NCBI RefSeq assembly: GCF_006539865.1
Contig: NZ_BJNV01000032.1
Location: 1 to 51,187 of the forward strand
Length of the DNA stretch: 51,187 nt
Reading direction: 5' to 3'
From: Zoogloea ramigera
GTDB lineage: Bacteria; Pseudomonadota; Gammaproteobacteria; Burkholderiales; Rhodocyclaceae
Shown here: positions 9,649-48,455 of the stretch, in pieces
Position numbering within the stretch: position 1 is the first letter of the stretch
Layout: every line of letters starts with the position of its first letter
Translations under genes and position numbers: made by a program
The notes under the pieces: model-generated
Database searches by the model: none
What the model was told of the DNA's origin: nothing
The model's input: the letters and a program-made list of their open reading frames with translations, nothing else

Positions 9649-9731
9649 CCCTCTCAAGGAAACGCAGGGCCGCCCCAAGTTTCCGTGCCCCCACGGGGGG
9701 CGGGCTGGGCGGAGCCCGGCCCTGGGGGCGC
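9649..9731. repeat. Dispersed three-hairpin repeat, copy B (reverse orientation)
   Basis: The best complete copy. Read on the + strand it has CTCTCAA, then stem GGAAAC (9658-9663)/GTTTCC (9679-9684), stem CCCCC/GGGGG (from 9688 to about 9699) and stem CGGGCT (9701-9706)/AGCCCG (9713-9718), ending in CTGGGGGCGC. Its reverse complement aligns nearly base for base with 48378-48455, and its inner half with 1-39. It lies between two convergent kinase genes. A bidirectional terminator or REP-like role is inferred. Confidence 0.85.
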
Positions 9732-9776
9732 TAAATAAGCCCCAGACACCTTCAGCCCTTCGGCCCTTCAAGCCCC

Positions 9777-12710
9777 TCAGCTCCCTAACCCCAGGCTCTC
9801 CATCGCCTCCTGCAGAACCTCCAGGGCTTGCTCGAAGTTGAAGCTTCGCGCCGCCTCGGCAATCAGCGGGAAGCGGTGGCCCAGCCCCGCCCGCAGGAGC
9901 GCTTCATGGGTTTCGAGGAGGGGGCCGCTGGCAAAGTCATCCGCCGCCAGGGCCTGGGCGAGCCGCGCGCAGACGGCCTTCAGTTCGGCCACATCGACGC
10001 AGGCCTGCGTCGGCGCGGCGGGTGTCGGGGCTGGCAGTGCCGCCTCGAGGGCGGCCAAGAGAGCCGTGAGCCGGCGGGTCACGTCGGCCTGCAGGGGCAC
10101 CAGGACGACGGCCTCCGCGCGGATTCGCACGGCGCTCTCCAGTTGCTCGGCGAGCTCACCCAGGGTGTGGGCGCCGATCTGCGCAGCGAGCCCCTTGAGG
10201 GTGTGGGCGAAGCGTTCGGCGGAGACCAGATCGGATTCGGCGAGGGCGGTGGCGAAATGCGCGGAAAAATCCCGCTGGCCGGCAACGAAGCGGGCCAGCA
10301 GCGCGAGATAAAGGGATTCCTTGCCCAGCGCGTTGCGCACGCCGTCCCGCACGTTCAGATCGGGCACGTCCGCCAGCGGGGCAAGATCGGCCGGCACTTC
10401 GCCGCCCCCGGCAGGTGCCGGAGCGGGCTGCACCACATGGGCCACCGGCTCGGTCTTCGGGGTGAGCCAGCGGCGCAGGCAGGCCCACAGCCGGGCGGGC
10501 TCGATGGGCTTGCTCACGTGGTCCTGCATGCCGGCGGCGAGGCAGCGCTCCCGGTCACCGGCCATGGCGTTGGCGGTCATCGCCACGATGGGCAGCCCGC
10601 CCCGCCCGGGCAGGCGGCGGATCTCGCGGGTGGCGGTGAGGCCGTCCATCACCGGCATCTGCAGGTCCATCAGCACGATGTCGTAGGGCTGGATGCGCAC
10701 CCGGTCGACGGCCACGGCGCCGTTTTCCGCCACATCGACCCGCATCCCGGCCTGGCGCAGGAGCTCCAGCGCCACCTGCTGATTGAGGTCGTTGTCCTCG
10801 ACGAGGAGCACCCGCGAGCCGGCCAGCCGGGACAGCTCCAGCCCCGGGGGTGCCACCAGCGCCGGCATCACCTCGCCGGCGGGCGCGTGGCCGAGCAGGC
10901 GCACCACGGTGTCGAAGAGCAGCGACGCGGTGACGGGCTTGATAAGCACGTCCTGGATGCCGATGCTGCGCGCCGCAGCGAGCAGCTCGTCACGCCCGTG
11001 GGCGCTCACCATCACGATGTGCGGCGGCTCTGCGAGCGGCAGAGCGCGGATCTCCCGGGCGGTGGAGATGCCATCCTTGCAAGGCATCTGCCAGTCGAGC
11101 AGCACCAGCGCGTAGGGCCTGCCGGCAGCCTCGGCGCTGCGGACTTCGTCGAGCGCGGCGGCGCCGGATTCAAGCGCCATCACCTCGAACCCCATCCGCC
11201 GCAGCATCTCGCCGAGCACCTCGCGGGCGTGGGCGTTGTCGTCCACCACCAGAATCGGGCGCCCGACGAGCTCGGCGTGGGGGACGAAGCGCGAGGGCTG
11301 GGCCGGGCCGTAGCCCAGCCGCGCGGTGAACCAGAAGGTCGAGCCGACCCCGGGGGTGCTGTTCAGCCCCACCTCGCCCTCCATCAGCGCGGCCAGCCGC
11401 CGCGAGATCACCAGCCCCAGGCCGCTGCCGCCGTAGTGGCGGGTGGTCGAGCTGTCGGCCTGCTCGAAGCTGCTGAACAGCCGGGCCTGCACGTCGTGGT
11501 CGATACCGATGCCAGTGTCGCGCACCTCGAAATACAGCTCGACCTGCCCGTCCCCGGCCTCACGCCGGCGGACGCGGATGGCCACTTCGCCGCGCTCGGT
11601 GAACTTCACCGCGTTGTTGGCGTAGTTGATCAGCACCTGGCCGAGGCGCAGCGGGTCGCCCACCAGCTCGTTGGGCACGTCGTCGGCCACGTCCACGATC
11701 AGTTCGAGGCCCTTGGCGGCGGTTTTCTCGGCCAGCAGGGCGGTGACGTTGACGATCATCCGCTCCAGCGAGAAGGGGATGTGCTCGACCACCAGCTTGC
11801 CGGCCTCGATGCGGGACAGGTCGAGGATGTCGTTGATGATGCCCAGCAGATGCTGGCCGGCGCCCTGGATCTTCTCGAGGTAGTCGCGCTGCCGCGCGGT
11901 CAGGTCGGTGCGCAGGGCCAGGTAGGCCATGCCGACGATGGCGTTCATCGGGGTGCGGATTTCGTGGCTCATGTTGGCCAGGAAGTCAGACTTCATGCGG
12001 GCGCCGTCCTCGGCCATCGCCCGCGCCCGCTGGGCCTCCTCGAGCATCTCCCGCTCCCGGGTGATGTCCTCGATGATGCCCACCAGGCCCCGCTCCGGGT
12101 GGGCCAGATCGAGCGCCCGCCCGGACATCCGCACCCACACTGGGCTGCCGTCCTTGCGCCGGACCTGCGCCTCGCGCTGGTGGTTCTCACCCTGCCAGAT
12201 CTTGCGATAGACCTCCTCGCCGATCCTCGCCCACTCCTCGTCGCTGGCATACCAGATGCGCGTCGGCTGCCCGATCTGCTCACCGGGCGCGTAGCCGAAG
12301 ATCTCGTCCATCCGCCGGTTGCAGTGCACGATGTGGCGATCGCGCATGAGCACGATGCCGGAGCTGGCGGCTTCGACGATGGCGCGGAACTCGGCCGCGG
12401 TGTCGTCCAGTTCGCGGATGCGCCCGGCCGTTTCGGCGTCCAGCCGGAGGCGGGCCTCCTCGCCCGCCGCGCGGAGCCCTTCGAGTTCGGCGCGGGCCGC
12501 CTGCAGCGCCTGCGTGCGCGCCGCCACGCGTCGGCGCAGCACGAGGCTCCAGACCAGCAGCCCGGCAGCCAGCAGCGCCAGCCCCACCAGGCCGTAGCCT
12601 GCCCCGCCCGGCAACAGGGCGACCGCCGTGTGCTCGGCGGCGGCCGGGGCGGGCCCTGGCACGACGCCCACAAGCCCGGCAATCGAAAAGGGTGACAACG
12701 ACCGCCTCAT
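9777..12710 (-). CDS. Hybrid sensor histidine kinase (TM-PAS-HisKA-HATPase-REC-REC-Hpt)
   Basis: A 977-residue kinase. A signal-like segment and one clear TM (about 37-58) are followed by a coiled coil (about 62-105), PAS about 105-220, HisKA with His249, HATPase (DTGIGI, GGSGLGL), receiver 1 with Asp539 (LLDWQMPCKDG), receiver 2 with Asp682 (LMDLQMPVMDG), and an Hpt domain with His836 (FAHTLKGLAAQIGA). This allows an internal His-Asp-His relay. The last about 65 residues (LKAVCARLAQALAADDFASGPL ... SFNFEQALEVL) repeat the tail module of the kinase at 6267. It lies 45 bp after the HD-GYP regulator gene on the same strand, so the pair is likely a cognate kinase-regulator operon controlling cyclic-di-GMP. 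Confidence 0.93.
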   Translation of the reverse strand: MRRSLSPFSIAGLVGVVPGPAPAAAEHTAVALLPGGAGYGLVGLALLAAGLLVWSLVLRRRVAARTQALQAARAELEGLRAAGEEARLRLDAETAGRIRELDDTAAEFRAIVEAASSGIVLMRDRHIVHCNRRMDEIFGYAPGEQIGQPTRIWYASDEEWARIGEEVYRKIWQGENHQREAQVRRKDGSPVWVRMSGRALDLAHPERGLVGIIEDITREREMLEEAQRARAMAEDGARMKSDFLANMSHEIRTPMNAIVGMAYLALRTDLTARQRDYLEKIQGAGQHLLGIINDILDLSRIEAGKLVVEHIPFSLERMIVNVTALLAEKTAAKGLELIVDVADDVPNELVGDPLRLGQVLINYANNAVKFTERGEVAIRVRRREAGDGQVELYFEVRDTGIGIDHDVQARLFSSFEQADSSTTRHYGGSGLGLVISRRLAALMEGEVGLNSTPGVGSTFWFTARLGYGPAQPSRFVPHAELVGRPILVVDDNAHAREVLGEMLRRMGFEVMALESGAAALDEVRSAEAAGRPYALVLLDWQMPCKDGISTAREIRALPLAEPPHIVMVSAHGRDELLAAARSIGIQDVLIKPVTASLLFDTVVRLLGHAPAGEVMPALVAPPGLELSRLAGSRVLLVEDNDLNQQVALELLRQAGMRVDVAENGAVAVDRVRIQPYDIVLMDLQMPVMDGLTATREIRRLPGRGGLPIVAMTANAMAGDRERCLAAGMQDHVSKPIEPARLWACLRRWLTPKTEPVAHVVQPAPAPAGGGEVPADLAPLADVPDLNVRDGVRNALGKESLYLALLARFVAGQRDFSAHFATALAESDLVSAERFAHTLKGLAAQIGAHTLGELAEQLESAVRIRAEAVVLVPLQADVTRRLTALLAALEAALPAPTPAAPTQACVDVAELKAVCARLAQALAADDFASGPLLETHEALLRAGLGHRFPLIAEAARSFNFEQALEVLQEAMESLGLGS

Positions 12711-12755
12711 GGGGACGCTCCCTGAACAGTCAGCGCCCGGCCACGGCGCGGTTAT

Positions 12756-13937: not shown

Positions 13938-14251
13938 TACCTACCTTTGTTAGCGGATGAAGCCGATGTCCGCACACTCGGACGCGGCGCGGCAATGCGG
14001 CACGCCCCCGATGATCGGCCCACCCGAGACGCCCATGACGCCCCGTGATTATCCTGGAAACCACCGCCGGATGCCGGCCCGCGCGCCCGAACCGCCGCCC
14101 CCCGCTACCGCACTGGTGCGCGGCCCTGCGGGCCTCTCGCTTTCACTGCATTACGCTACTTATCGACAAGCTGCGCGCAGGCTTTACCCGGGCCGTGCAG
14201 ATTGCCCGCCGTGCGACCATTCACGCAGCCGCCGTGGAACCAATCAGCCCC
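13938..14251. other. Divergent spacer between HD-GYP regulator and rpoH
   Basis: About 310 bases that should contain promoters for both the leftward regulator operon and rpoH. I see no coding sequence and no convincing -35/-10 pair; the only clear element is the CIRCE at its right end. Confidence 0.5.
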
Positions 14252-14278
14252 TTAGCACTCACAGGCTGGGAGTGCTAA
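14252..14278 (+). promoter_or_regulatory. CIRCE operator (HrcA binding site) upstream of rpoH
   Basis: A perfect match to the CIRCE consensus: TTAGCACTC (14252-14260), 9-base spacer, GAGTGCTAA (14270-14278). It ends 25 bases before the rpoH start and just ahead of the ribosome binding site. CIRCE is the operator of the heat-shock repressor HrcA, usually found before groESL or hrcA-dnaK. A TAATAT -10-like hexamer overlaps its right end (14276-14281). Confidence 0.95.
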
Positions 14279-28545: not shown

Positions 28546-28548
28546 CCC

Positions 28549-33808: not shown

Positions 33809-34567
33809 ATGCTGCAAAAGCAACAACAAAGCGCCCAGCGCCCCGGCCGCAACCTGCACGTCGGCCTCGCCACCAGCCAGACCGAAGTGCTGGAAGCCCA
33901 GAAGCTGCGCTACCGGGTCTTCGCCGACGAGATGGGCGCCCGCCTGACCACGCGCAGCCCGGGGGTTGACCGCGACCTCTACGACGCCTTCTGCGAACAC
34001 CTCATCGTGCGCGACGAAGACGCCGGGCGCATCGTCGGCACCTACCGCATCCTCTCGCCGAGCGCCGCCCGCGAAGTGGGCAACTACTACTCCGAGACCG
34101 AGTTCGACATCACCCGCCTGCGCCACCTGAAGAGCCGCATGGTGGAGATCGGCCGCTCCTGCATCGACGCCGATTACCGCTCCGGCGCGGTGATCACCCT
34201 GCTGTGGTCCGGCCTCGCCCGCTACATGCTCGAGAACAAGTACGACTACCTGATCGGCTGCGCTTCGGTGAGCATGGCCGACGGCGGGCACACCGCGGCC
34301 AGTCTGTATAATCGGCTCAAGGACGAGCATCTGTGCCCGCTCGAGTACCGGGTCTTCCCGCGCACGCCGCTGCCCCTGCAGGCCCTGCGCCAGGACATCG
34401 AGGCCGACACGCCGCCGCTCATCAAGGGCTACCTGCGGGCCGGCGCCTGGATCTGCGGCGAGCCGGCCTGGGACCCCGACTTCAACACGGCCGACCTGCC
34501 GGTGCTGCTGCCGGTTTCCCGGCTCGATGCCCGCTACGCCAAACATTTCATGGGACGCAAGGACTGA
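33809..34567 (+). CDS. olsB: L-ornithine N(alpha)-acyltransferase
   Basis: A 252-residue GNAT-like acyltransferase of the OlsB (hemolysin-like) family. It has NLHVGLATSQTEVLEAQKLRYRVFADEMGA, DRDLYDAFCEHLIVRD, GTYRILSP, EIGRSCIDADYRSGAVITLLWSG and PPLIKGYLRAGAWICGEPAWDPDFNTAD, all typical. It moves a 3-hydroxyacyl chain from ACP to ornithine, the first step in phosphorus-free ornithine lipid. ATG 33809 is chosen because GAGGA lies 8 bases upstream; ATG 33779 is possible. It is followed directly by olsA. Confidence 0.92.
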   Translation: MLQKQQQSAQRPGRNLHVGLATSQTEVLEAQKLRYRVFADEMGARLTTRSPGVDRDLYDAFCEHLIVRDEDAGRIVGTYRILSPSAAREVGNYYSETEFDITRLRHLKSRMVEIGRSCIDADYRSGAVITLLWSGLARYMLENKYDYLIGCASVSMADGGHTAASLYNRLKDEHLCPLEYRVFPRTPLPLQALRQDIEADTPPLIKGYLRAGAWICGEPAWDPDFNTADLPVLLPVSRLDARYAKHFMGRKD

Positions 34568-35319
34568 AACCCGCCAGCCCCACCCCAACCGCCGTCCGCC
34601 TGCTCCGCTACGCCCGCCTCGCCGCACATCTGCTGCGCGGCACGGCGATCGCGGCCATTGGCTTTCCGTTCCTCCGCCCCGCACGGCAGATCCGCCTCAG
34701 GCAGCGCTGGTCGGCCCACCTGCTGAAGATCCTCGGCATCCGCCTCGAGAAGGACGAGCCCTTCGTCGCCCCCGGCAGCCTGCTGGTCGCCAACCATGTG
34801 TCGTGGCTGGACATCTTCGTGATCAACGCCGCCTATCCGGCCGCCTTCATCTCGAAGGCCGAGGTGCGCGAGTGGCCGCTGATCGGCTGGCTGGCCGCCA
34901 AAAACGAGACGGTCTTCCTGCGCCGCGGCAGCCGCGGCCATGCGCGCATCGTGAACGCTGAGATCGCCAGCCTCCTGGGCCGCGGGCGCCAGGTGGCCTT
35001 GTTTCCGGAGGGCACCACCACCGACGGCAGCCAGGTGCACCCCTTCCATGCGGCGCTGCTGCAGCCGGCCATCGAGGCCGGCGCGCCGATCCAGCCCCTC
35101 GCCCTGTGCTATCGCCTGCCGGACGGCCGTTTCACTCGCGCCCCGGCCTACGACGGCGACGTGAGCCTGCTGGATTGCCTGAAAGCCATCGTGGCCGAGA
35201 GGGAGATCGTTGCACGCATCCACGTGCTGCCCCAGCTGGCGACCACGGAACTGCCCGACCGCAAGCGCCTGTCCCAGCGCGCCCGCGACGCGATCGTCGA
35301 GCGGATCGCCAACTGTTGA
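34564..35319 (+). CDS. olsA: Lyso-ornithine lipid O-acyltransferase (PlsC family), CTG start
   Basis: A 251-residue PlsC-type acyltransferase with one N-terminal hydrophobic segment, the NHVSWLD active site (His78, Asp83), and FPEGTTTDG. Behind olsB it should add the second acyl chain to make ornithine lipid. No ATG, GTG or TTG exists in frame between 34333 and the NHVSWLD motif. CTG 34564 overlaps the olsB stop (CTGA), just where an ATGA overlap would be expected, with AAGGA right before it. The start is therefore probably non-canonical, or the sequence has an A-to-C change. Confidence 0.88.
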   Translation: MKPASPTPTAVRLLRYARLAAHLLRGTAIAAIGFPFLRPARQIRLRQRWSAHLLKILGIRLEKDEPFVAPGSLLVANHVSWLDIFVINAAYPAAFISKAEVREWPLIGWLAAKNETVFLRRGSRGHARIVNAEIASLLGRGRQVALFPEGTTTDGSQVHPFHAALLQPAIEAGAPIQPLALCYRLPDGRFTRAPAYDGDVSLLDCLKAIVAEREIVARIHVLPQLATTELPDRKRLSQRARDAIVERIANC

Positions 35320-35405
35320 GCGCCCCCGGGCGCCCGGCTTTATCCAGCTCGCCCCGCGAGGGCTAAGGAACCCTGAGGCGACCCCGCGCCTCGTTGAGAA
35401 GCCGC
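35320..35405. repeat. Diverged copy D of the three-hairpin repeat
   Basis: It starts GCGCCCCCGGG right after the olsA stop, as copy C starts right after its gene. It keeps three stems in the same order but with other bases: GGCT...AGC, GCCC...GGGC and GAGGCG...CGCCTC, and ends GTTGAGAAG where the others have TTGAGAG. It fills the convergent olsA-apaH gap. Relationship inferred from layout and edges, not from high identity. Confidence 0.5.
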
Positions 35406-35429
35406 TGCCCCCGGCGCCGGCCTCGCGGC

Positions 35430-36263
35430 CTACGAGGGCTTGACCTTGCCGTGGCTGAGCCCGGGGCAGGCCACCTGGAACACCGCCCTGTCCTCCAGCC
35501 GCACCGCGCTCAGCTCGCGCCCCCACAGGCAGCCCGAATCCAGCGCCAGCAGCCGGGGCTCGACCCGTAACCCCAAAGCCGACCAGTGGCCGAACACCAG
35601 CGTGGTGTCGGCGCTCTTCCGCCCGGGCACCTCGAACCAGGGCACATAGCCCTTGGGGGCCTTGATCACCTCGCCCTTCACCTTGAAGTCCATCTGCCCG
35701 TCGAGGGTGCAGAAACGCATGCGGGTCATCGCGTTGACGATCACCCGCATCCGCGCATAGTCGCGCAGGTCGGGGTGCCAGGCGGCCGGCTCACTGCCCC
35801 ACATGTTGTGGAGCAGGTCGGCATGGTAGGGGCCGGCCAGCGCGCCCTCGACCTCCCGGGCCAGAGCCCGCGCCTGGGGCACGCTCCAGCTGGGCAGGAG
35901 GCCCGCATGCACCATCGCGAAGCCGTTCTCCACGTGCATCAGCGGCCGCGTGCGCAGCCAGCCGAGCAGGGCATCGCGGTCGGGGGCGTCGAGCACGGCC
36001 TGGATGGTGTCGTCCTTGGCCCGGCTGCGCACCGCGCCATAGGCCACCATCAGCAGGTAGAGATCGTGGTTGCCCAGCACCGTCACCGCCGCCGGCCCCA
36101 GGTCGCGGACGAAGCGCAGGGTGTGCAGCGAATCCGGCCCCCGGTTGACGAGGTCGCCCACCAGCCACAGGCGGTCGTGGGCCGGGTCGAAGGCGACCCG
36201 CTTGAGCAGGGCCATGAGTGAGGTGAAACACCCCTGGATGTCGCCGATCGCGTAAGTTGCCAT
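35430..36263 (-). CDS. apaH: Symmetrical diadenosine tetraphosphatase
   Basis: A 277-residue calcineurin-like phosphoesterase with the ApaH start MATYAIGDIQGCFTSL, the metal motifs LVGDLVNRGPDSL and VTVLGNHDLYLL, and MVHAGLLPSW near residue 115. It cleaves Ap4A to two ADP. ATG 36263 lies 3 bp after the stop of the polysaccharide dehydratase gene, so apaH is the last gene of the leftward surface-polysaccharide operon. A diverged hairpin repeat lies behind it. Confidence 0.96.
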   Translation of the reverse strand: MATYAIGDIQGCFTSLMALLKRVAFDPAHDRLWLVGDLVNRGPDSLHTLRFVRDLGPAAVTVLGNHDLYLLMVAYGAVRSRAKDDTIQAVLDAPDRDALLGWLRTRPLMHVENGFAMVHAGLLPSWSVPQARALAREVEGALAGPYHADLLHNMWGSEPAAWHPDLRDYARMRVIVNAMTRMRFCTLDGQMDFKVKGEVIKAPKGYVPWFEVPGRKSADTTLVFGHWSALGLRVEPRLLALDSGCLWGRELSAVRLEDRAVFQVACPGLSHGKVKPS

Positions 36264-36266
36264 GGT

Positions 36267-38141: not shown

Positions 38142-39151
38142 GGCTTCTCAGGCTCGCCAGCCCGGTGACTGCGCCACGCGCGGTCGATCCGGTAGCCGAC
38201 GATAAGGTGTGCAGTAATGCACATTGTAATGATGGCGCACTGCAGCGAGAACCCCACCCGCAACCCCGCAACTGCCGCCACCCCGCACAGCGCCATCAGC
38301 CCGTAGGCACGCAGGGCCGTCCCCCGGTGGCCCAGGCCCATCTGCACCATGCGCTGATAATAGTGACTGCGGTGCGCCTGCCAGACCTTCTCGCCCCGCA
38401 ACGCTCGCCTCAGCAGGGTCACCGTCGCGTCCAGGATGAAGGGCGCGAAGACCAGCAAGGGAAACCACAGGGGCCAGGCGCCGCTCCGCCAGCCCACCAG
38501 GCCCAGCGCACCGGCCGTGAAGCCCAGCGGCACCGAGCCGACATCCCCCATGAAGATGCGCGCCGGGTGGAAATTGAAGCACAGAAAGCCCGCCGCCGCC
38601 GCCGCCACACCCGCACACACTGCCGCCAGTGCCGGCTCGCCGCCCTGCCCGGCAGCCCAGGCAAAGGCCCCGAAGCCGAACACCGCCATGCCGCCGGCGA
38701 GCCCGTCGGAGCCGTCCATGAAGTTGTACAGATTGCCCATCCACACCAGCCCGAGCAGCAACAGCAGCGCAACGCCCCAGCCACCGGCCACCCCGGCCAG
38801 CGCCACAAAAGCCCCGGCCACCAGCACCTGGGCCAGCAAACGCAGCCGTGCCGACAAACCGGCCCGGTCATCCGCCAGCCCCAGTGCCGCCAGCACGAAG
38901 GCCCCGCCCAGCGCCACCAGCAGGGCTCGCCCGGGGCTCGCCACCACGATCGTCACCACAACCGCCGCGGCGATGCCCGCCATCACCCCCACCCCGCCGG
39001 TGCGGGGCGTCGGCCGCACATGCAGCGAGCGGGCGTTGGGATGGTCCAGAAAATACAGCCACGACCCCGGGCGGCAGCACAGCCAGGTCACCCCCCAGGC
39101 CACGGCGAAGGCCGCCACGGCAACCGCCGGCAACACGCTGTCAAACCCCAC
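38138..39151 (-). CDS. Undecaprenyl-phosphate glycosyl-1-phosphate transferase (WecA/WbpL-like, MraY family)
   Basis: A 337-residue polytopic protein of the MraY/WecA family. It has SLHVRPTPRTGGVGVMAG near the N-terminus, the catalytic Asp regions ALGLADDRAG and NLYNFMDGSDGLAGG, FMGDVGSVPLG, and the cytoplasmic loop HRSHYYQRMVQMGLGH. It starts glycan synthesis on lipid carrier in the inner membrane. The start is GTG 39151, with GGGAG upstream, and overlaps the end of the epimerase gene by 11 bp. Confidence 0.93.
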   Translation of the reverse strand: MGFDSVLPAVAVAAFAVAWGVTWLCCRPGSWLYFLDHPNARSLHVRPTPRTGGVGVMAGIAAAVVVTIVVASPGRALLVALGGAFVLAALGLADDRAGLSARLRLLAQVLVAGAFVALAGVAGGWGVALLLLLGLVWMGNLYNFMDGSDGLAGGMAVFGFGAFAWAAGQGGEPALAAVCAGVAAAAAGFLCFNFHPARIFMGDVGSVPLGFTAGALGLVGWRSGAWPLWFPLLVFAPFILDATVTLLRRALRGEKVWQAHRSHYYQRMVQMGLGHRGTALRAYGLMALCGVAAVAGLRVGFSLQCAIITMCITAHLIVGYRIDRAWRSHRAGEPEKP

Positions 39152-40106
39152 CGAGCATCTCCCGCAGACCTTCGGCCAGCCCCACCCGGGCCCGCCAGCC
39201 GAGCTCCCGCTCGATGCGGGCCGGCGAATAACAGGCCGAGCCGAGTAGCCGCCCGAGCGCCTCGCTGTCGAGCGGGACGCGCCGCGAGAGCAACCGCTCG
39301 ACCCCGTCGCCCAGCCGGGCCGCTGCCGTCAATACCCCCCGCGGCACCGACCACCTGACCGGCGCCAGCCCCTGGGCCGCCCGCAGCGCATCGAAGAGCT
39401 GGCGCCCGGAATGGGTTTCAGGATGGGCGACGATGTAGCTGCGGCCTGCCGCGCGGGGGTCGAGGGCCACCCGGCGGATCGCCGCCACCACGTCCGACAC
39501 ATGCACCAGCGAGCGCCGGTTGCCGGTCTCCGGCAGCGGCGGAAAGATACCCCGCCGCACCAGCGCCGCCATGCGCTCCAGGTTGCCGCGCCCACCCGCG
39601 CCATACACCATCGCCAGGCGCAGGCTCACGGCGTGCATCCCGTAATCCCCGGCGGCCGCCTGCAGGGCGTCTTCGGCGGCGCGCTTGGCCTGGCCGTAGG
39701 CGCCCGTCGGCGGCGCGGGCCAGTCTTCGTCGATGCACGCATCCAGCGGCTCGCCCATCGCCTTGACGCTGGAAAGAAACACGAAACGCCGCACCCCGGC
39801 GCGCCCCGCCGCCTCGGCCAGCGCCCGCGTACCCTCGAAGTTGACCTGCCGGTGGCGGGCCGCCTCATCGGCACTGAGCGCCCCGAAGGCATGGGCGTGG
39901 CCGGCGCAGTGGAACACCGTGTCGACGCCCTCGCAGGCCCGCGCCAGGCTGTCCGGGTCGGCCAGCTCGCCGCGGACTTCGTCGGGCCCCGGCACATCAC
40001 CCCGGGTCAGCACCCGCAGCGTGACACCATCCGCCCGCAACGCGGCGACCAGCCGGGCGCCGATGAAGCCGCGCCCACCGGTGACGAGGCAGCGGCCGAG
40101 CGTCAA
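39141..40106 (-). CDS. NAD-dependent sugar epimerase/reductase (WbpV/GalE-like SDR)
   Basis: A 321-residue extended SDR with the NAD loop VTGGRGFIG, FLSSVKAMG and the YGQAK catalytic pair, plus SLVHVSDVVAAI. Together with the neighbouring transferase and dehydratase it resembles the WbpV-WbpL-WbpM trio that makes and loads the first O-antigen sugar. No ATG fits: TTG 40106 with GGGAGG just upstream overlaps the ligase stop (TTGA); another TTG seven codons upstream lacks a ribosome binding site. Exact substrate unknown. Confidence 0.88.
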   Translation of the reverse strand: MTLGRCLVTGGRGFIGARLVAALRADGVTLRVLTRGDVPGPDEVRGELADPDSLARACEGVDTVFHCAGHAHAFGALSADEAARHRQVNFEGTRALAEAAGRAGVRRFVFLSSVKAMGEPLDACIDEDWPAPPTGAYGQAKRAAEDALQAAAGDYGMHAVSLRLAMVYGAGGRGNLERMAALVRRGIFPPLPETGNRRSLVHVSDVVAAIRRVALDPRAAGRSYIVAHPETHSGRQLFDALRAAQGLAPVRWSVPRGVLTAAARLGDGVERLLSRRVPLDSEALGRLLGSACYSPARIERELGWRARVGLAEGLREMLGGV

Positions 40107-40969
40107 AACGCCTCCCGCCGCCGCCAATAGCTGGCGAAGCGCGGCACCCCGTCGCGGGTCAGCTCACGGTACACAAAAGTGACCTGGGCGCCCACCGGCG
40201 GCGGCTCACGCCGCTCGGCGTCGGTGAAGCCGGTGCCCAGCTGAAAGCGCACGCCGGAAGGCGTCTCGACCAGCAGCGCGCCCATCATGCCGGCCAGCCG
40301 CCCGCGCCCGGGCAGATGCGCGAGGACGGTCGCCTCGGCGTCGAGCCGCGGCTTGAGCTTGAGGAGCGCGTCGCTGCGCCCGGTGACATAGGGCGCGTCG
40401 GCCCGGTGCAGCATCAGGCCCTCGCCGCCGCCGGCCACGACCGCGTCGAGGCGGGCCTGCAGCGCCGCCCGGTCGGCCACCCGGAACTGCTCCACCACCT
40501 GTAACCAGGGCACGCCAGCCCGGGCCACGATGGCCTTCAGGCGTTCGGCGCGCTCGGTGAAGCTGCCGGCGCCATCGGGCTGCTCGAACACCATGAAGCG
40601 CACCTGCCGCCATTCGTCGTCGCGGGGCTGCTGGCGGCGCACGATGCCGGACAGCTCGGCAAAGCGCCCGCGGCCGATCCACAGCTCACCGTCGAGGGGC
40701 TCGGGCGGCAGCCCGGCGACGAACCACTCCGGCGCCGGCACCGGCCGGCCGCTGCGAAAGCGCAGGCGCTGACCGTCCCACAGGGCACGGGCGCCGTCGA
40801 GCTTTTCGCTGACCCAGTAGTCGGCCAGCGCCACGTCACCGCGCAGCACCTCGGCGAGCAGCAGCGGCGGCGCCACCGGCGCGGCCAGCGCGGAGGGTAG
40901 GCCGCTTGCGAGGGCCAGGGCCAGCGCGACGGCGCGCAGGCAGGGAGCAATACGTGTGTTGGTCGCCAT
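40103..40969 (-). CDS. Periplasmic ATP-dependent DNA ligase (Lig E type)
   Basis: A 288-residue minimal ligase. A typical Sec signal peptide (residues about 1-30, cleavage after ALA) precedes the nucleotidyltransferase core with motif I SEKLDGARALWDG (Lys56 nucleophile), LDGELW (motif III-like), GEGLMLHR (motif IV) and LLKLKPRLDAEATVL (motif V), followed by a short OB domain. Signal-bearing Lig E enzymes are known in Neisseria, Haemophilus and other competent Gram-negatives and act outside the cytoplasm. Here it lies inside a polysaccharide operon, 3 bp after the glycosyltransferase gene and overlapping the epimerase gene. Confidence 0.92.
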   Translation of the reverse strand: MATNTRIAPCLRAVALALALASGLPSALAAPVAPPLLLAEVLRGDVALADYWVSEKLDGARALWDGQRLRFRSGRPVPAPEWFVAGLPPEPLDGELWIGRGRFAELSGIVRRQQPRDDEWRQVRFMVFEQPDGAGSFTERAERLKAIVARAGVPWLQVVEQFRVADRAALQARLDAVVAGGGEGLMLHRADAPYVTGRSDALLKLKPRLDAEATVLAHLPGRGRLAGMMGALLVETPSGVRFQLGTGFTDAERREPPPVGAQVTFVYRELTRDGVPRFASYWRRREAF

Positions 40970-40972
40970 GGG

Positions 40973-41761
40973 TCAGAACCACCGCCATCCGTGCTTGTTG
41001 AAGAATCGCGCGGCGCCGCTCACGAAGAGCCGGATGTGGTGCAAGCCCTTGCGCGCCGCATGGCCGCCATGATGCACCACCTTGACCGCCGGCACATATG
41101 CGATTCGCGTCAGGCGCGCCGCCCGCAGGCTCAGGTCGTAGTCTTCGAAGTACAGGAAGAAGTCGGGGTCGAAGCCCCCAAGGCGGCGCAGCACGCCGGT
41201 GCGGAACAGCATGAAGGCGCCGCTGACGAGGGGCGGGTCCCACACCACCTGCTCGCCGATGAGGTCCTGCATCTCGTAGCGGGCCATGCGGCGGGCGTTG
41301 AGGCGGCGCAGCCAGCCCGGTGCGAAGCCGCGCAGGAAGAGGTCGAAGACCGAGGGCACCCGCTTGCACAGATACTGGATGCGCCCGTCGTCCCAGTGGG
41401 CAGCCGGCGCCAGGAGGCCGCATTCGGGGTGGGCGGCCATGAAGGCCCGCGCCTCGACGAGGGCGTCGGGCGCCAGCTCGAGATCGGGGTTGAGGATCAG
41501 GTGGAAATCGCCGGCGCCGTCGAGGCTGAGGTTGTGGCCACAGCCGAAACCCACGTTACCGTGGCCTGCGATGTGGTGCACCGTCCAGCCGGCGGGCAGC
41601 TCGAGGCCAGCCAGCGCTTCGGCGCTGCCGCCGTTGTCGATCAGGAAGAGGTCAGGCTGCAGATCGGCCCGCCGGCTGGCCACCTCGAGGGCGGCCAGGG
41701 TGGCCCGCAGCAGGGCGGACTCGGGGCGGTACAGCACGAGGCTGACGGTCAGGGGCGCCAT
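40973..41761 (-). CDS. Family 2 glycosyltransferase (rhamnosyltransferase-like)
   Basis: A 262-residue GT-A fold enzyme: SLVLYRPESALLRATLAAL at the N-terminus, FLIDNGGS, GNVGFGCGHN, the nucleotide-sugar LILNPDLEL, and VSGAFMLFRTGVLRRLGGFDPDFFLYFEDYDLSLR, the pattern of WbbL-like rhamnosyltransferases. It likely extends the surface glycan on its lipid carrier in the cytoplasm. The ATG at 41761 comes 54 bp after the upstream epimerase. The actual sugar is unknown. Confidence 0.92.
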   Translation of the reverse strand: MAPLTVSLVLYRPESALLRATLAALEVASRRADLQPDLFLIDNGGSAEALAGLELPAGWTVHHIAGHGNVGFGCGHNLSLDGAGDFHLILNPDLELAPDALVEARAFMAAHPECGLLAPAAHWDDGRIQYLCKRVPSVFDLFLRGFAPGWLRRLNARRMARYEMQDLIGEQVVWDPPLVSGAFMLFRTGVLRRLGGFDPDFFLYFEDYDLSLRAARLTRIAYVPAVKVVHHGGHAARKGLHHIRLFVSGAARFFNKHGWRWF

Positions 41762-41815
41762 GCTTGCCCCCCGCGGCCGGGCGGCGGGAGCGGCGCCGGG
41801 CGCCCCCGGCGGAAA

Positions 41816-42823
41816 TCAGAGCTTGTAGTAGCTCCGGTACCACTCGACGAAACGCCCGACCCCTTCGCGTACCGGGGTTTCCGGCTTGAAGCCGGTCCAG
41901 GCATTGAGTTCGTCGGTGTTGGCATAGGTGGCCGGCACGTCGCCGTCCTGCAGGGGCATGAAGTTCTTTTCGGCCTTGACACCCACGGCATCCTCGATGG
42001 CTTCGATGAAGCTCATCAGCTCGACCGGGTTGTTGTTGCCGATGTTGAACACACGGAAGGGCACATTGCTGCGCCCCGGATCGGGCAGGTCGGCATTGTA
42101 AGCGGGATCGGGCTCGGCGACACGGTCCATGGTGCGCACGACGCCCTGCACGATGTCATCGACGAAGGTGAAGTCGCGCTTCATCTTGCCGTGGTTGAAC
42201 ACGTCGATCGGGCGGCCTTCGAGGATCGCCTTGGTGAACAGGAACAGCGCCATGTCGGGGCGGCCCCACGGGCCATACACCGTGAAGAAGCGCAGCCCGG
42301 TGGTCGGCAGGCCAAAGAGGTGGCTGTAGGTGTGGGCCATCAGCTCGTTGGCCTTCTTGGTGGCGGCGTAGATGCTGACCGGATGGTCGACGCTGTCGTG
42401 CTCGGAGAACGGCATCCGGGTGTTGCCGCCGTACACGCTGGAGCTGCTGGCATACACCAGGTGCTGCACCTTGCTGTGGCGGCAGCCCTCGAGGATGTTC
42501 ATGAAACCCGCCACGTTGCTCTCGACGTAGGAATGCGGGTTGACCAGCGAGTAACGCACGCCGGCCTGCGCCGCCAGGTGGATGACCCGGTCGAACTTCT
42601 CCTCGGCGAAGAGCCTCTCCATGCCCTCCCGGTCGGCCACATCGAGCTTGATGAAGCGGAAGTTCGCGTGGGGCGTGAGGCGCGCCAGGCGATCGAGCTT
42701 GAGCTGGACGTCGTAGTAATCGTTGAGATTGTCGATGCCGACGACTTGATCGCCGCGGGCCAGCAGAACCTGGCTGGTGTGCATGCCGATAAAACCGGCA
42801 GCACCGGTGACGAGGATTTTCAT
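41816..42823 (-). CDS. UDP-glucuronate 4-epimerase (NAD-dependent)
   Basis: A 335-residue extended SDR with [84 protein letters not shown] (Tyr and Lys catalytic pair) and [17 protein letters not shown]. These match the UDP-GlcA to UDP-GalA epimerases in length and sequence. It is the first gene of the seven-gene leftward operon. ATG 42823 is chosen at the conserved start; further upstream sequence is non-conserved. Confidence 0.93.
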
Positions 42824-42919
42824 GAGCGTGGGGACGATCCGGATTGTTGGGTTCGGGACAGCCGGAGCAGAGAGCGGACCACGGGGGCGGAACAAGCGGC
42901 TGTCAGGCCGCTGATTTTC

Positions 42920-42934
42920 GCATGAGGCTCATGC
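42920..42934. promoter_or_regulatory. Perfect palindrome in the waaA/epimerase divergent region
   Basis: GCATGAG and CTCATGC flank a single G, a 7-1-7 perfect dyad. A second dyad, AGCGGC/GCCGCT with a 6-base centre, lies at 42895-42912. A TATACT -10-like hexamer is at 42983-42988 on the waaA side without a good -35. The pair lies between the polysaccharide operon and waaA and could be an operator for both; no regulator is recognised. Confidence 0.45.
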
Positions 42935-43017
42935 AGGGTAAATCCTAGAAACAACTTGTCCGTGTCTTCTGTAACGACCCGTTATACTTTGCACTCTCGA
43001 TCAACGATGCCAATGCC

Positions 43018-44313
43018 TTGATTCTGCGCAGCCTTTACACCCTCGTCTGGCTTATCGCCCTACCCTTCGTGCTGCTGCGCCTGGTGTGGCGCGCGCGGCG
43101 CCAGCCCGACTACCTGCGGCATATCCCCGAGCGCTTCGGTTTCTACCGCACCCGCCTCAACAATCCGGTGATCTGGCTGCATGCCGTGTCGGTAGGCGAG
43201 ACCCGGGCCTGCGCGCCGCTGCTCCACGCCCTGCTCGACACCTACCCCGACCACCGGGTGCTCCTCACCCACATGACCCCCACCGGCCGCGCCACCGCCG
43301 CCGAGCTGTATGGCAAGCTCGCCCCCCGGGTGCAGAGCGCCTACCTGCCCTACGACATCCCGTGGGCGATCTCGGGCTTCCTGCGGCATTTCCACCCCCG
43401 CATCGGCATCCTGATGGAAACCGAGCTGTGGCCCAACCTGGTGCGCGCCTGCCACCACACCGGCACCCCGCTGGCGATGGTCAACGCCCGCCTGTCGGCC
43501 CGCTCGGCCAAGGGTTACAGCCGCATCGGCGGCCTTGCCCGCGAAGCCTTCGCCCACCTGTCGGCGATCGGTGCCCAGACCGAGGCCGACGGCCAGCGCA
43601 TGGCCGACCTGGGCGCCCGCTACGTGATGATCACCGGCAACATCAAGTTCGACATCGCCCCGCCGCCGGCCATGCAGGCGCTGGCCGCCGACTTCCGCAA
43701 CCGCTTCGGGCCCCAGCGCGAGATCCTGCTCGCGGCGAGCACCCGCGAGGGCGAGGAGGGCCCGCTGCTCGAAGCCTTTGCGCGGATGTGCCCGCCCGAG
43801 GTGCTGCTGGTGCTGGTGCCCCGCCACCCCGACCGCTTCGACGAGGTCGCCAAACTGGTCAAGCGCGCCGGCCTCAAGATGCAGAAGCGCTCGAAGGGCG
43901 TGCCGGTGATGGCCGACACCCGGGTCTGGCTGGGGGATTCGATGGGCGAGATGCACGCCTACTACGGCGCCGCCGACGTGGCGATCATCGGCGGCTCGTG
44001 GGCCCGGCTGGGTGGCCAGAACCCGATCGAGGCCAGCGCAGTCGGCTGCCCGGTGATCGTCGGCCCCCACACCTTCAACTTCAAGGCGGTCTGCGAGCAG
44101 GCCATCGAGGTGGGTGCCGCGGTGCGCGCCGACGACATCGCCGACGCGCTGCAGGTGGCCCTCGAGATCATCGCCGACCCGATCCGCCGCAAGACCATGA
44201 GCGCCGCTGGCAGCCTGTTTGCCCATTCCCACCGGGGCGCCACAGGTCGCACCATGGACCTGATCACTCCGCTGCTGCGCACCGCCCGGCCACGCCGGCC
44301 CGGCGAGCGCTGA
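43018..44313 (+). CDS. waaA: 3-deoxy-D-manno-octulosonic acid (Kdo) transferase
   Basis: A 431-residue GT-B enzyme anchored by one N-terminal helix (LYTLVWLIALPFVLLRLVW). It has VIWLHAVSVGETRA, LLTHMTPTGR, YLPYDIPWAISGFLRHFHP, the ETELWPNLV block, ASTREGEE and WARLGGQNPIEASAVGCPVIVGPHTFNF, all WaaA/KdtA signatures. It adds Kdo to lipid A precursor at the inner membrane. No ATG fits; TTG 43018 starts the anchor helix. It converges on ubiA with 12 bp between stops. Confidence 0.96.
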   Translation: MILRSLYTLVWLIALPFVLLRLVWRARRQPDYLRHIPERFGFYRTRLNNPVIWLHAVSVGETRACAPLLHALLDTYPDHRVLLTHMTPTGRATAAELYGKLAPRVQSAYLPYDIPWAISGFLRHFHPRIGILMETELWPNLVRACHHTGTPLAMVNARLSARSAKGYSRIGGLAREAFAHLSAIGAQTEADGQRMADLGARYVMITGNIKFDIAPPPAMQALAADFRNRFGPQREILLAASTREGEEGPLLEAFARMCPPEVLLVLVPRHPDRFDEVAKLVKRAGLKMQKRSKGVPVMADTRVWLGDSMGEMHAYYGAADVAIIGGSWARLGGQNPIEASAVGCPVIVGPHTFNFKAVCEQAIEVGAAVRADDIADALQVALEIIADPIRRKTMSAAGSLFAHSHRGATGRTMDLITPLLRTARPRRPGER

Positions 44314-44325
44314 AACCGCCCACCC

Positions 44326-45207
44326 TCAGCGCAGCAGGTAATCCGCCACCCAGCCGGCGAAGATCGCCCCACCCACCCAGTTGTTGTGCAAAAACGCCTT
44401 GAAGCACCGCGGGCGGTCGCGCTCGCGGATCAGGGTGTAGTGGTAGGCCATCAGCCCGGCGGCCACCACCAGCCCGGCCAGAAAGGGCGCCCCGGCGCCG
44501 GTGGCGAGCCCGGCCCAGCCGAGCAGCAGCAGGGTCATCGCGTAGCAGATCATGATGGCCGCGACCTCGAAGCGGCCGAAGGTGATCGCCGAGGTCTTGA
44601 TGCCGATCTTCAAGTCGTCGGGCCGGTCCACCATCGCGTACTCGGTGTCGTAGGCCACCGCCCAGAACACGTTGGCGAGCAGCATCACCCAGGCCACCAG
44701 CGGGATGTCGTTCTGGAAGGCCGCGAAGGCCATCGGGATGCCGAAGCCGAAGGCGATGCCCAGGTAGGCCTGGGGAATCGCCAGAAAACGCTTGGTGTAG
44801 GGGTAGCTGCCGGCCAGGAAGACCGCCGGCACGCTCATCGCGATGGTCAGGCCGTTGAGCGGCAGCACCAGCAGGAACGACAGCACCGACAAGCCCGCCG
44901 CCAGCCCCAGGGCCTCCTTCGGGCTGATCCGGCGGGCCGCCAGCGGGCGGTTGCGGGTGCGCTCCACGTGGCCGTCGAAGTCCTTGTCGGCGTAGTCGTT
45001 GATCACGCAGCCGGCCGAGCGCATCAGCACCGTACCGACCACGAAGATCGCCACCACCCACGCCGCCGGCCGGCCGTCGCTGGCCACCCACAGGGCCCAC
45101 AGGGTTGGCCACAGCAGCAGCAGGATGCCGATGGGTTTGTCGAGGCGCATCAGCTTTTCGTATTCGGACAGGCGCTGACGCAGGCTGAGGGTGCTCATGG
45201 TCGTCAT
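44326..45207 (-). CDS. ubiA: 4-hydroxybenzoate polyprenyltransferase
   Basis: A 293-residue polytopic prenyltransferase. It has [24 protein letters not shown], the first Asp motif [53 protein letters not shown] and the second Asp motif [22 protein letters not shown], all UbiA-type. It prenylates 4-hydroxybenzoate in ubiquinone synthesis at the inner membrane. ATG 45207 overlaps the ubiC stop (ATGA), so ubiC-ubiA are coupled. Confidence 0.97.
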
Positions 45208-45758
45208 GGGTTCAGGTTCCGGATCGCCGGCAGGAAGATTTCGGTAACGAGGAGCGGCACGCCGTGGCGCCGGAAGGCCGAGCGGCGCGCCCACAGCGCC
45301 GGCAGCGCGGGCTGGCCGAGGGCCTGCACGGCCCGATGCCAGCGGAAATCGCGGGCATCGAGGCGGGCCGCCTCGAGGGCCGAACGGCGCACCCGCGGAT
45401 CGTCGAACAGCACCGCCGCCAGCGGCCGCCCACCGAGGCCATGGAGCAGGTGCCAGGCGGCGGGGATCGTGGTGGCCGCCACCAGCGAGCGGGCGAACAC
45501 CACCGGCTCACCGTCGGCAACCAGCAGCACCTCCCGCTGCCACAGGGCCCCGTGGCGCTGCACGCCGAGGGCCGCCAGCTCGTCCGGCAGCACGCAGCCC
45601 TTGCCCTGGCGCACCAGCTGCAACGAGAAGCGCCCACAGCGGGAACGGATGCGCGCGGTGAGCGAGCTGTCGTCGGTGAGCCAGCCGCGCATCCCGCGTG
45701 GGGCCTGCCAGGCCGCCATCCGGAAGGGGTCGCGACCGGGGAAATGAGCGAGGGTCAT
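45204..45758 (-). CDS. ubiC: Chorismate pyruvate-lyase
   Basis: A 184-residue soluble enzyme with the UbiC pattern: [67 protein letters not shown] and the C-terminal [20 protein letters not shown]. It converts chorismate to 4-hydroxybenzoate and pyruvate, the first committed step of ubiquinone synthesis, supplying UbiA encoded directly downstream. ATG 45758 begins the conserved region. Confidence 0.92.
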
Positions 45759-46331
45759 GAACTACGAGAAACAGGGTCGGCACAAGCGCCGCAATTGTAG
45801 GGGGTTTTCGCTCGCCAGAGCGGAGCTATTCAGCTTGACGGTGAATCGGCCGTGGCGCCGCGCCCCAGGCCGACGCCGGAGTAGATCATCGACGAGCTGC
45901 GGGCTGGCCCCCGTCGCCGGCCCGGGTGCGGCGAACGCCAGACGTCAAGCCAAGCCCACCGACACCGCACAGGCGATCACAATCGGGCGCGGCCCCCATA
46001 TCGTTTTTAACCACAGATCACAAAATCTGCCAGAATCTTCATAAAGCACATGAAAACGCCTGATTCTGCCAATCGTCCTGAAGACGGCTGTCTGGCGCGC
46101 CCGATGGTGCGACTGCCCCCCGACGGGGCAGCAGGGCGGAGCGACAACGCCGGGCCCAGGTACGAGCCTGCGAGCGTGTAGCGCCGCCACCCTCGGAGTG
46201 AGCGCTGGCGAAGGCACGACAGAGAGTGCTCATGCGGCGCTTGAGCCCGCCGATGGCGGTGAGGCGCCGTTTCCAGGACCCTGCCAAAGGGTTCGACTTT
46301 GCCTCAACCGGCGCCCAGGAATGGAGCCGCA
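45759..46331. other. Long spacer with an AT-rich island before the DUF362 gene
   Basis: About 570 bases without a gene I can support; the short open frames here have Arg/Pro-rich, unlikely products. Positions about 46005-46075 are strikingly AT-rich for this genome and hold CAGAATC (46031-46037) and GATTCTG (46062-46068), a 7-bp inverted repeat, so this is the likely promoter region. The 240 bases between it and the gene look like a long leader or decayed sequence. Confidence 0.5.
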
Positions 46332-48377
46332 ATGCAAACCTCAGTCGTTGCCCTGGTCCGCAACACCTCCTACCAGGCGGAAGCCCTCCGGCAATCGGTC
46401 GAACAGGCCCTGGCCCTGATCGAACAGCCACTTTCGCGGCTGGTTCGCCCGGGCGACCGGGTGCTCGTCAAGCCCTACCTGCGCCACGGCCCGATGCGCG
46501 CACCAGAGACCCGCATGGTGTCCCACCCGGCCCTGATCGAGACGATGATAGGCATGGTTCGCGACTGCGGCGGGCGCCCGACCCTGGGCGACGAAGGCTC
46601 GCGGCACCTGCGCCGAACCCAGCCACCCCCCGACGAGATGTGGCTCCACCTGCTGGCCGAACGGGCCGGCGCCGAGCTCGTCAGTTTTGCCAAGGCCGGC
46701 GGGCGCCTCGTTCCTAGCGGCATCCCGCGCCCCCGTCAATACCTGCTCAGCCGGGCCGTGCTGGATGCCGACGTGGTGATCAATCTGGCCAACGCCGTCC
46801 TCCACCCGACCTTCATCTGGAGCGGTGCCCTCAAGAACATGTTCAACGCCGTGGTCGGTGCCGGCAACGCGCAGTTGTTCGAGCTGCTGCGCGATCACGA
46901 CGCCCTGAACGCCGCCGTCGCCGACCTGTGCCGGCAGTCCCGCCCCACCCTGTCGCTGTCCGACATGACCACCGTCTGCCCCGACTCGAAGGCCGACCTG
47001 TGGCGCGTGGGCCTGATCGGCGCCTCCACCGACCCGGTCGCCCTCGACAGCGTATCGGTCCAGGCCCTCGGCTGGGACCCGGGTCAGATCGGCAGCCTGG
47101 TGTGGGGGCAGCGCCTCGGGCTCGGGCAATGGGCGCGGCAGGACATCGACCTGCGCGGCCTGTCCTGGGCCGACCTGCCGGTCTTCGCGCAGGCCCAGCG
47201 CAAGGCCACCGCCATCACCCCCGAGAGCCGCCTGCAGCGCACGCTCCGAGTCGTCCACAAGACCACCCTGCGCCAGCGCCCCATCATCGACGCCGCACGC
47301 TGCACCGGCTGTGGCGACTGCATCCAGATCTGCCCGATCGGGCTCATCACCGCCGGCCCCCAAGGCAAGCCGCTCATCGACTACGCCCGCTGCGTCGACT
47401 GCATGGTGTGCGCCGACGCCTGTGGGGAGCAGGCCATCAAGCCGGGCATGCGCGGCTGGCCGGCGGCGGCCCTGTGGCCCTTGAATCTGGCCCGGCGGGC
47501 CTGGTGCCGCAGCAAGACGGGCTACGTCTGGCATGTCGGAAACGTATCCATACGCTGGCAACTGAAGAAGACCAAGCCGGTGCGCAAACCGCGCGCCCCG
47601 GCCCCGCCCGGCACTCCCCGAAAGGAAGGCATCATGCAACACTTGAGCAGCGCGCAGGGCGCGGCCCCCGGCGCGGGGGGCGTCGCGCTCATCGTCGGGG
47701 TCGGCCCCGGGCTGGGCGCCTCGCTGGCCCGCCGCTTTGCCCGCGAGGGGATGGACATCGCCCTCGTCGCACGGGACGGCCAGCGCCTCGAGGCCCTCGT
47801 GGATGAACTGCAGGGCCTCGGGGTGACAGCCCGCATCTACCCCTGCGACATCACCGAAGACCCCGCCGTCACCGGGATGGTCCGCGCCGTGTGCAGCGAG
47901 CTCGACGTGCCCAGGCTCGCGGTGTATTGCACCGAGCACTACGGCCCCGGCCACGTGGTCGACATCGAGACCGCGGCCTTCATCGATTGCTGGGAGGTGA
48001 ATTGCCTGGGCGCCTTTCTGGTCGGCCGCGAGGTGGCGCGGGCGATGCTGACCCGCGGTGCCGGCACCCTCATCTTCACCGGTGCCACCGCCGCCATGCG
48101 CGGCCGCGAGGGCTACGCCAACATGGCCGTCGGCAAGTGGGGCCAGCGGGCCCTGGCCCAGTGCATGGCGCGCGAGCTCGGCCCGAAGGGCATCCACGTG
48201 GCCCATGTGATCATCGACGGCGGCATCCTCAAGGACGGCAGCTCGGCGCTGCAGTGGGAGCGCATGGCCGGCCTCTACCCCGACGAGATCGCCGAGAACT
48301 ACCTGGCCCTGCACCGCCAGCACCCGAGCACCTGGACCCAGGAGCTCGACCTGCGCCCGTGGATCGAGAAGTTCTGA
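46332..48377 (+). CDS. DUF362/two-[4Fe-4S] ferredoxin protein fused in frame to a short-chain dehydrogenase
   Basis: A 681-codon frame. Residues about 1-290 form a DUF362 domain (RVLVKPYL, MVSHPALIE, FIWSGALKNMFNAVVG). Two [4Fe-4S] motifs follow: Cys324, 327, 330, 334 and Cys354, 357, 360, 364. After a basic Pro-rich linker (about 411-434) comes a complete SDR of about 247 residues with Rossmann loop GVGPGLGASLARR; the usual SDR Tyr and Ser are replaced. An ATG at 47634 starts the SDR exactly, with AAAGGAAGG upstream, and Arg codon CGA at 47619-47621 is one transition from TGA. ATG 46332 is preceded by GGAG. It may be a true fusion, or two genes joined by stop loss or a sequencing error. Confidence 0.85.
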   Translation: MQTSVVALVRNTSYQAEALRQSVEQALALIEQPLSRLVRPGDRVLVKPYLRHGPMRAPETRMVSHPALIETMIGMVRDCGGRPTLGDEGSRHLRRTQPPPDEMWLHLLAERAGAELVSFAKAGGRLVPSGIPRPRQYLLSRAVLDADVVINLANAVLHPTFIWSGALKNMFNAVVGAGNAQLFELLRDHDALNAAVADLCRQSRPTLSLSDMTTVCPDSKADLWRVGLIGASTDPVALDSVSVQALGWDPGQIGSLVWGQRLGLGQWARQDIDLRGLSWADLPVFAQAQRKATAITPESRLQRTLRVVHKTTLRQRPIIDAARCTGCGDCIQICPIGLITAGPQGKPLIDYARCVDCMVCADACGEQAIKPGMRGWPAAALWPLNLARRAWCRSKTGYVWHVGNVSIRWQLKKTKPVRKPRAPAPPGTPRKEGIMQHLSSAQGAAPGAGGVALIVGVGPGLGASLARRFAREGMDIALVARDGQRLEALVDELQGLGVTARIYPCDITEDPAVTGMVRAVCSELDVPRLAVYCTEHYGPGHVVDIETAAFIDCWEVNCLGAFLVGREVARAMLTRGAGTLIFTGATAAMRGREGYANMAVGKWGQRALAQCMARELGPKGIHVAHVIIDGGILKDGSSALQWERMAGLYPDEIAENYLALHRQHPSTWTQELDLRPWIEKF

Positions 48378-48455
48378 GCGCCCCCGGGGCCGGGCTCCGC
48401 CCAGCCCGCCCCCCGTGGGGGTGCAAGGAAACCTGCCTGCGTCTCCTTGAGAGCC
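48378..48455. repeat. Dispersed three-hairpin repeat, copy C
   Basis: A complete forward copy filling the gap between the convergent SDR-fusion gene and recG. Stems in order: CGGGCT/AGCCCG, CCCCC/GGGGG, and AAGGAAAC (48425-48432)/GTCTCCTT (48441-48448, one mismatch), then GAGAG. It starts immediately after the SDR stop codon. Nearly identical to the reverse complement of copy B. Confidence 0.85.

Follow-up and report, generated by a model that had tools for sequence, protein, structure and literature searches.

Why should one short, hairpin-forming sequence stand at the 3′ ends of several neighbouring genes, and is it there as a mobile element, as a device of the host for ending or protecting its transcripts, or by accident? 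The question arises from the window, the whole stretch of Zoogloea ramigera DNA analysed here (51,187 nucleotides), which is all of contig C32 in a genome of 4.6 Mb and 207 contigs. A preliminary description made from the sequence alone had reported several copies of a three-hairpin element in it. Blast and profile searches confirmed four, and by these comparisons sites A, B, C and D are homologous copies of one repeat family. The copies and their neighbours are as follows.

1..35, + strand: copy A, last 35 nt of the repeat (profile positions 51-84, E 5.7e-6)
40..642, − strand: acpH-like gene (ACP phosphodiesterase), 3′ end toward copy A (Pfam ACP_PD, E 4e-61)
6267..9449, + strand: hybrid histidine kinase gene, convergent neighbour of copy B (Pfam HisKA, HATPase_c, Response_reg)
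9651..9734, − strand: copy B, full length, between convergent genes (blast with copy C; profile positions 1-85)
9777..12710, − strand: hybrid histidine kinase gene, upstream of copy B in the orientation of the repeat (Pfam Response_reg, HATPase_c, HisKA, Hpt)
34333..35319, + strand: acyltransferase gene, its TGA stop codon being the start of copy D (Pfam Acyltransferase, E 1.7e-24)
35317..35400, + strand: copy D, full length, diverged (profile match 35317-35399, E 4.7e-8; covariance model E 2.3e-4)
35430..36263, − strand: metallophosphoesterase gene, convergent to copy D (Pfam Metallophos, E 4e-13)
46299..48377, + strand: DUF362/ferredoxin/short-chain dehydrogenase gene, its TGA stop codon being the start of copy C (Pfam)
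48375..48453, + strand: copy C, full length, with a short stem III loop (blast, profile, gene context)
48462..50570, − strand: recG-like helicase gene, convergent to copy C (Pfam DEAD, Helicase_C, RecG_wedge)

With copy C as the query, blast recovered copy B at 85% identity (E 3.2e-20). The profile was built from 27 copies of the window genome, including B and C and without A or D, and was run over 783 kb; no fifth copy was found in the window at E 1e-3. Copy A consists of the last 35 nt only because the contig begins inside it, and copy B is inverted relative to the other three. The copies had been picked out correctly at the outset, while their boundaries shift by 2-3 nt, with the start now placed at the TGA of TGAGCGCC. 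This TGA is itself the stop codon of the upstream gene at copies C and D, and copy B lies 42 nt past the upstream stop codon. The Pfam-checked flanking genes bear out the reported setting: at B, C and D the two neighbouring genes converge on the repeat, and A adjoins acpH at its 3′ end. Ahead of copy C, a single 692-aa frame combines domains of three kinds, DUF362, ferredoxin-type 4Fe-4S and short-chain dehydrogenase (Pfam), and this frame has long matches in six relatives of the genus.

The idea that the element had been amplified was upheld well beyond the window. A covariance model built from 108 copies gave 97 matches at E<=0.01 in the window genome, where 150 of 5307 candidates were scored, so that the copy number can be put at roughly a hundred. 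Profile search returned 36 matches at E<1e-3 in a 1.79-Mb sample of the same genome, a sample that was not blind since copies had earlier been found on C4, C5, C6, C9, C12 and the window contig, the remaining contigs being picked by contig number. Contigs C4, C9, C12, C32, C103 and C107 start within a copy, and counts taken from the draft are therefore probably low.

Among 40 genomes searched by blast with the consensus (at most 22 candidates scored per genome), 14 matched: the window genome, 12 of 22 other members of the genus and the single other family member drawn. None of the 16 genomes from other families matched at this depth of scoring. An order-wide draw of 120 genomes, with 37 candidates per genome and stricter filters, gave three matches at E<=1e-6, the window genome included. 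An exact 24-nt pattern was present in at least 104 stretches of named records, the titles of which name at least 11 genera (Thiomonas, Zoogloea, Verticiella, Trinickia, Rhizobacter, Piscinibacter, Rubrivivax, Ideonella, Methylibium, Thauera and Denitromonas), all of them presumably betaproteobacteria. The genera count is a lower bound, as copies from named hosts were retrieved by matching the 3′ half of the repeat exactly. The matches listed also include MAGs with no finer name than Burkholderiaceae, Zoogloeaceae or Proteobacteria, as well as one under the title Halothiobacillus neapolitanus that belongs to a cave series shared with Thiomonas MAGs. Blast of plasmid records found copies on two plasmids of uncultured bacteria (92.6% identity over 63% of the query) and on a Burkholderia arboris replicon (78% over 99%). 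On plasmid pAKD16, typed IncP, the copy (L278:2999-3076) begins at the TAA stop codon of sdpA; it adjoins mercury-resistance genes. No copy was found in phage records (blastn with the consensus) or in viral contigs (exact pattern). As far as these samples reach, the repeat is distributed patchily among betaproteobacteria, with copies on some of the plasmids they carry.

The unit is about 82 nt long, reads CGCCCCC...CCTTGAG(AG) and is preceded by YTGAG; its consensus is TGAGCGCCCCCAGGGCCGGGCTnCGCCCAGCCCGCCCCCCGnGGGGGTCAAGGAAACTTGGGGCGGCCCTGCGTTTCCTTGAGAG, from an alignment of 108 rows made up of 107 of 130 non-redundant copies plus copy D. Information content rises at the pyrimidine and TGAG, and falls past TTGAG(A)(G). 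Its two consensus ends, TGAGCGCC.. and ..CCTTGAGAG, do not form an inverted pair, and terminal inverted repeats are thus absent. Folded as a single strand, the unit can form stem I, a GC-rich hairpin of variable sequence, stem II (CCCCC/GGGGG), which can pair either locally or around stem I (91.3% versus 83.3% of cells), and stem III, a strongly conserved hairpin CAAGGAAAC...GTTTCCTTG. Three structures were written by hand and each was counted; the one used for the model was chosen after the count, as that with the most two-sided pairs in stem I. Two-sided changes occur at 7 of 9 pairs of stem I. The whole structure has 37 two-sided cells, compared with a shuffle mean of 12.4 (none of 500 shuffles as high) and with 10-20 in controls in which the partner was slid, whereas the number of pairs with a two-sided change, 9, lies within the slid-control range of 7-13. 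At the level of the family, the alignment shows compensatory changes in stem I. In stem III 1 of 10 pairs has a two-sided change, a figure limited by the way in which copies were obtained: those from named hosts were fetched by a match to the 3′ half and are conserved there by construction. RNAalifold gave a poor consensus structure on the 108-row alignment. The pAKD16 copy, which is outside the alignment, reads CAAGCAAA..TTTGCTTG and has an apparent compensated change in stem III. Individual copies differed in how they folded as RNA relative to shuffles: copy C folds better (z -2.5), copy B not clearly so (-1.4) and copy D no better (-0.4). Copy D had been read as a case of structure kept while sequence drifts, a reading that did not survive; it retains 17 of the 26 pairs of the family, the smallest number among the 108 aligned copies, and its fold stands at z -0.43 against shuffles.

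A longer form was also seen. In 9 copies in 2.06 Mb of the window genome (C31:24241-24301, C6:128006-128065, C19:22803-22864 and six more), a further hairpin module, CATTCCAAGGCC..GTTTCTCAAGAG and about 60 nt long, lies directly 3′ of the repeat. The module was never found alone in the 2.06 Mb, nor at E 1e-3 in the fetched loci of relatives, which suggests that the composite spread within the window genome. Separately, the window genome holds at C6:25841-26193 a tandem array with a period of about 90 bp, the unit of which is related to the repeat and distinct from it; tandem units like these are present in two relatives (G005:C42 and G007:C114).

That the element is mobile was borne out by clean pairs of filled and empty sites in relatives. 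At the first site, relative G005 is filled and reads C-TGAG-(CGCC..CCTTGAGAG)-CGGCAG, and the window genome is empty and reads C-TGAG-CGGCAG, with flank identities of 93.6% (297 nt) and 95% (40 nt). At the second, G007 reads TAAG-(unit)-CATCGC and G005, empty, reads TGAG-CGTCGC. A third site, filled in G005 and empty in the window genome, fits the same ends, with its four target bases differing. Two clean empty sites and an imprecise one show insertion directly after TGAG, and tandem copies are joined as CCTTGAG(AG)|CGCCCCC. The copy C locus is filled in G007 too and empty in G018-G021. The gene before it ends in ..EKF and a stop codon at the same place in four relatives that lack the repeat, and the filled G007 has the same ending with a TAG stop; the upstream gene has therefore not been shortened by the repeat.

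The pyrimidine before the TGA belongs to the target word. Of the 36 stop copies, 33 open with TGA, as do 16 of the 25 remaining copies. In these, the preceding base is a pyrimidine in 33 of 33 stop copies compared with 291 of 415 background sites, and in 16 of 16 non-stop copies compared with 623 of 1164. Altogether 47 of 61 left edges read YTGAG and about a quarter do not. GAG at the left and right edges varies independently (52 joint occurrences, 48 expected), and this appears to speak against a 3-nt target duplication, the clean empty sites being compatible with either. In 14 chosen orthologous pairs, some of which share members, the repeat is 87% identical and its flanks, which are partly coding, are 93% and 90% identical; such drift would argue against a strong function of single copies.

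We then compared the positions of the copies with those of genes, called with a codon model trained on Pfam-confirmed genes of the window genome. The set, drawn from 2.06 Mb at E<=1e-4, comprised 87 copies, starts within about 80 nt being merged except in one array; 74 had a called gene on both sides, 5 were inside called genes and 8 were at edges. The 74 copies fall into 33 convergent, 30 tandem codirectional, 7 tandem opposed and 4 divergent contexts, and in 63 of them the upstream gene is on the strand of the repeat. The start of the repeat overlaps the upstream stop codon in 42 (exactly in 35) and does not in 32; the overlapped stop codons are 39 TGA, 2 TAA and 1 TAG. This tie to gene ends, proposed from the window alone, exceeds what the target word would give: in 1.79 Mb, of the 1512 TGAG sites that carry no copy and either form a stop or lie outside genes, 348 are stops (p 4e-10), and when the word is YTGAG or one of two longer motifs the share of stops among free sites is 31-35% (p from 3e-6 to 1e-4). 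Enrichment in convergent gaps was found as well, with 25 of 42 stop copies convergent compared with 110 of 348 free TGAG sites (p 2e-4, and at most 0.001 with the other motifs). Among 17 tandem stop copies a single one ends 30 nt or less before the next start; gaps this short account for 48% of the full set of 1080 tandem gaps and, once overlapping ones are removed, for 33% of the remaining 838 (p 0.01). The 32 non-stop copies (13, 8, 7 and 4 by class) showed no clear pattern relative to free sites. Elsewhere the stop codon is overlapped in 30 of 40 evaluable copies of genus relatives and in 18 of 36 of other named genera, the gene caller being less sure in distant genera; copies of Thiomonas are rarely on stops (5/31).

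Together, these results lead us to favour, with a probability of about 0.6, a non-autonomous mobile repeat that would insert in one orientation directly 3′ of YTGAG, most often at a TGA stop codon followed by G. The inserted repeat would become the start of the 3′ UTR of the upstream gene, bringing hairpins with it and leaving the protein unchanged. Because the unit has hairpins and lacks inverted termini, we infer that it may move as folded single-stranded DNA, carried by an enzyme that would read a short target word. This logic resembles that of the IS200/IS605 family. IS608 has hairpins near both ends, inserts 3′ of a short word and has no inverted termini, and the repeat shares these three features; unlike such elements, it has no transposase gene in or near the copies examined. 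Translations between close pairs of copies, judged by eye as possible autonomous genes bracketed by them, look like ordinary genes. With less assurance than for this mode of movement, we suggest that the RNA hairpins might end, process or protect the upstream transcript, and that copies in tight operons might be lost; the avoidance of tight operon gaps and the changes in stem I point to such a role, and the latter would also be explained by recognition of the stem as DNA. The wider picture is one that we hold more tentatively, at somewhat under even odds: a mobile element that seeks stop codons at YTGAG, leaves the protein intact while adding a hairpin 3′ UTR, is moved by an enzyme yet to be found, and is patchy in betaproteobacteria and plasmids. 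Several observations sit uneasily with a mobile repeat of this kind, among them the lack of a candidate enzyme, with PF01797 missing from the window genome, the imprecise third empty site, the quarter of left edges that are not YTGAG, the copies off stops (32 of 74 in the window genome, and all but 5 of 31 in Thiomonas), the drift of orthologous copies below both flanks (87% compared with 93% and 90%), the number of two-sided pairs, which unlike that of cells does not exceed the slid controls (9; 7-13), and a missing terminator pattern at C and D.

A different account, that the repeat is a terminator or RNA stabiliser whose use to the host at gene ends led to its amplification, with mobility incidental, is in our view unlikely, even though the bias to gene ends and convergent gaps beyond target availability, the compensatory changes in stem I and the single copy among 17 tandem stop copies within 30 nt of the next gene (compared with 33% of non-overlapping tandem gaps, p 0.01) are what it would lead one to expect. 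The same bias can be explained by the purging of harmful insertions, and the patchy distribution, the largely lost fold of copy D and orthologous copies that drift at least as fast as their flanks all run counter to it. The element had been proposed as a bidirectional terminator, for which we find no support: it is one-directional, with the upstream gene on its strand in 63 of 74 copies, and an intrinsic-terminator scan of 35000-51187 gave no terminator-like site at copies C and D. Like intrinsic terminators the repeat has a GC-rich hairpin just after a stop codon, and unlike them it has no T-run after either hairpin; the sequence of copy B has none after its hairpins on either strand. The repeat may still have an RNA-stabilising or 3′-end role.

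We consider it distinctly unlikely that the repeat is a REP family proper, moved by TnpA-REP (RAYT) that has since been lost from the copy-rich genomes. According to the available text of one source, REPs are palindromes of 20-50 nt that follow a tetranucleotide, most often GTAG (PMC8266576, which also describes a guide-tetranucleotide model), and they are reported to affect transcription ends (PMC2817692, PMC8266576). The likeness to REP/BIME, as far as these accounts describe them, is considerable: many extragenic palindromic copies, a conserved tetranucleotide ahead of the hairpins, insertion with no inverted termini and apparent movement in trans. The differences are that the repeat is about 82 nt long with two to three hairpins, has TGAG in place of the mostly GTAG of REPs and targets stop codons. 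As for the enzyme, 9 of 23 genus genomes carry PF01797 (RAYT/Y1_Tnp), with G012 (13 repeat matches), G021 (7) and G011 (5) among them, and in 14 named hosts it has a match in 7, over the cut-off in 6. Against this, it is absent from the window genome (G000) and from G005, G007, G019 and G020, which have 11-23 repeat matches each, as well as from 7 of the named hosts, and none of 16 Y1_Tnp loci of the genus carries the repeat. Judged from these genomes, this obvious enzyme family does not fit well as the mover. A Y2_Tnp search gave no match, and its controls were silent too. The Thauera RAYT has no counterpart in other betaproteobacteria, as stated in the accessible part of PMC2817692.

Chance hairpins or an assembly artefact are scarcely credible: several draft contigs do start within a copy, as breaks caused by such repeats would have it, while E-values reach 1e-24, copies occur in records titled as isolates, and sister genomes hold orthologous copies.

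The repeat was said at first to belong to no named family, and this holds among the known families tested. Rfam gave 0 matches in the window at gathering score, and at loose E-values around copies C and B the best sub-threshold hits were microRNA models (E 0.13-0.15). In the literature searched, which lies mostly outside the subscription journals, we recognised no description of the repeat; a survey of stem-loop families covers Bordetella and Neisseria among betaproteobacteria in its available text (PMC2267715). In the accessible text of a review, most small mobile repeats are said to have terminal inverted repeats and a target duplication, and ERIC and NEMIS to affect neighbouring mRNAs (PMC2229807). 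Like the MITE-like repeats (NEMIS/Correia, RUP, ERIC, YPAL), the present one is small, non-autonomous and structured; unlike them, by their descriptions and without comparison of sequences, it lacks terminal inverted repeats, TA ends, A+T-richness and a demonstrated target duplication. YPAL, with internal inverted repeats and no A+T-richness, is by description the nearest. Since it fails a defining feature of each, we file the repeat under neither REP nor MITE. On its features it would belong among small non-autonomous structured repeats, and it is REP-like in several respects.

Insertion at stop codons in hosts that lack the REP transposase family would point to a mobilising enzyme that is as yet unrecognised or has been lost. 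The sister species provide naturally occurring genes that carry the repeat and others that lack it, in which the effect of a new 3′ UTR on transcript ends, on mRNA level and on the convergent neighbour could be measured.
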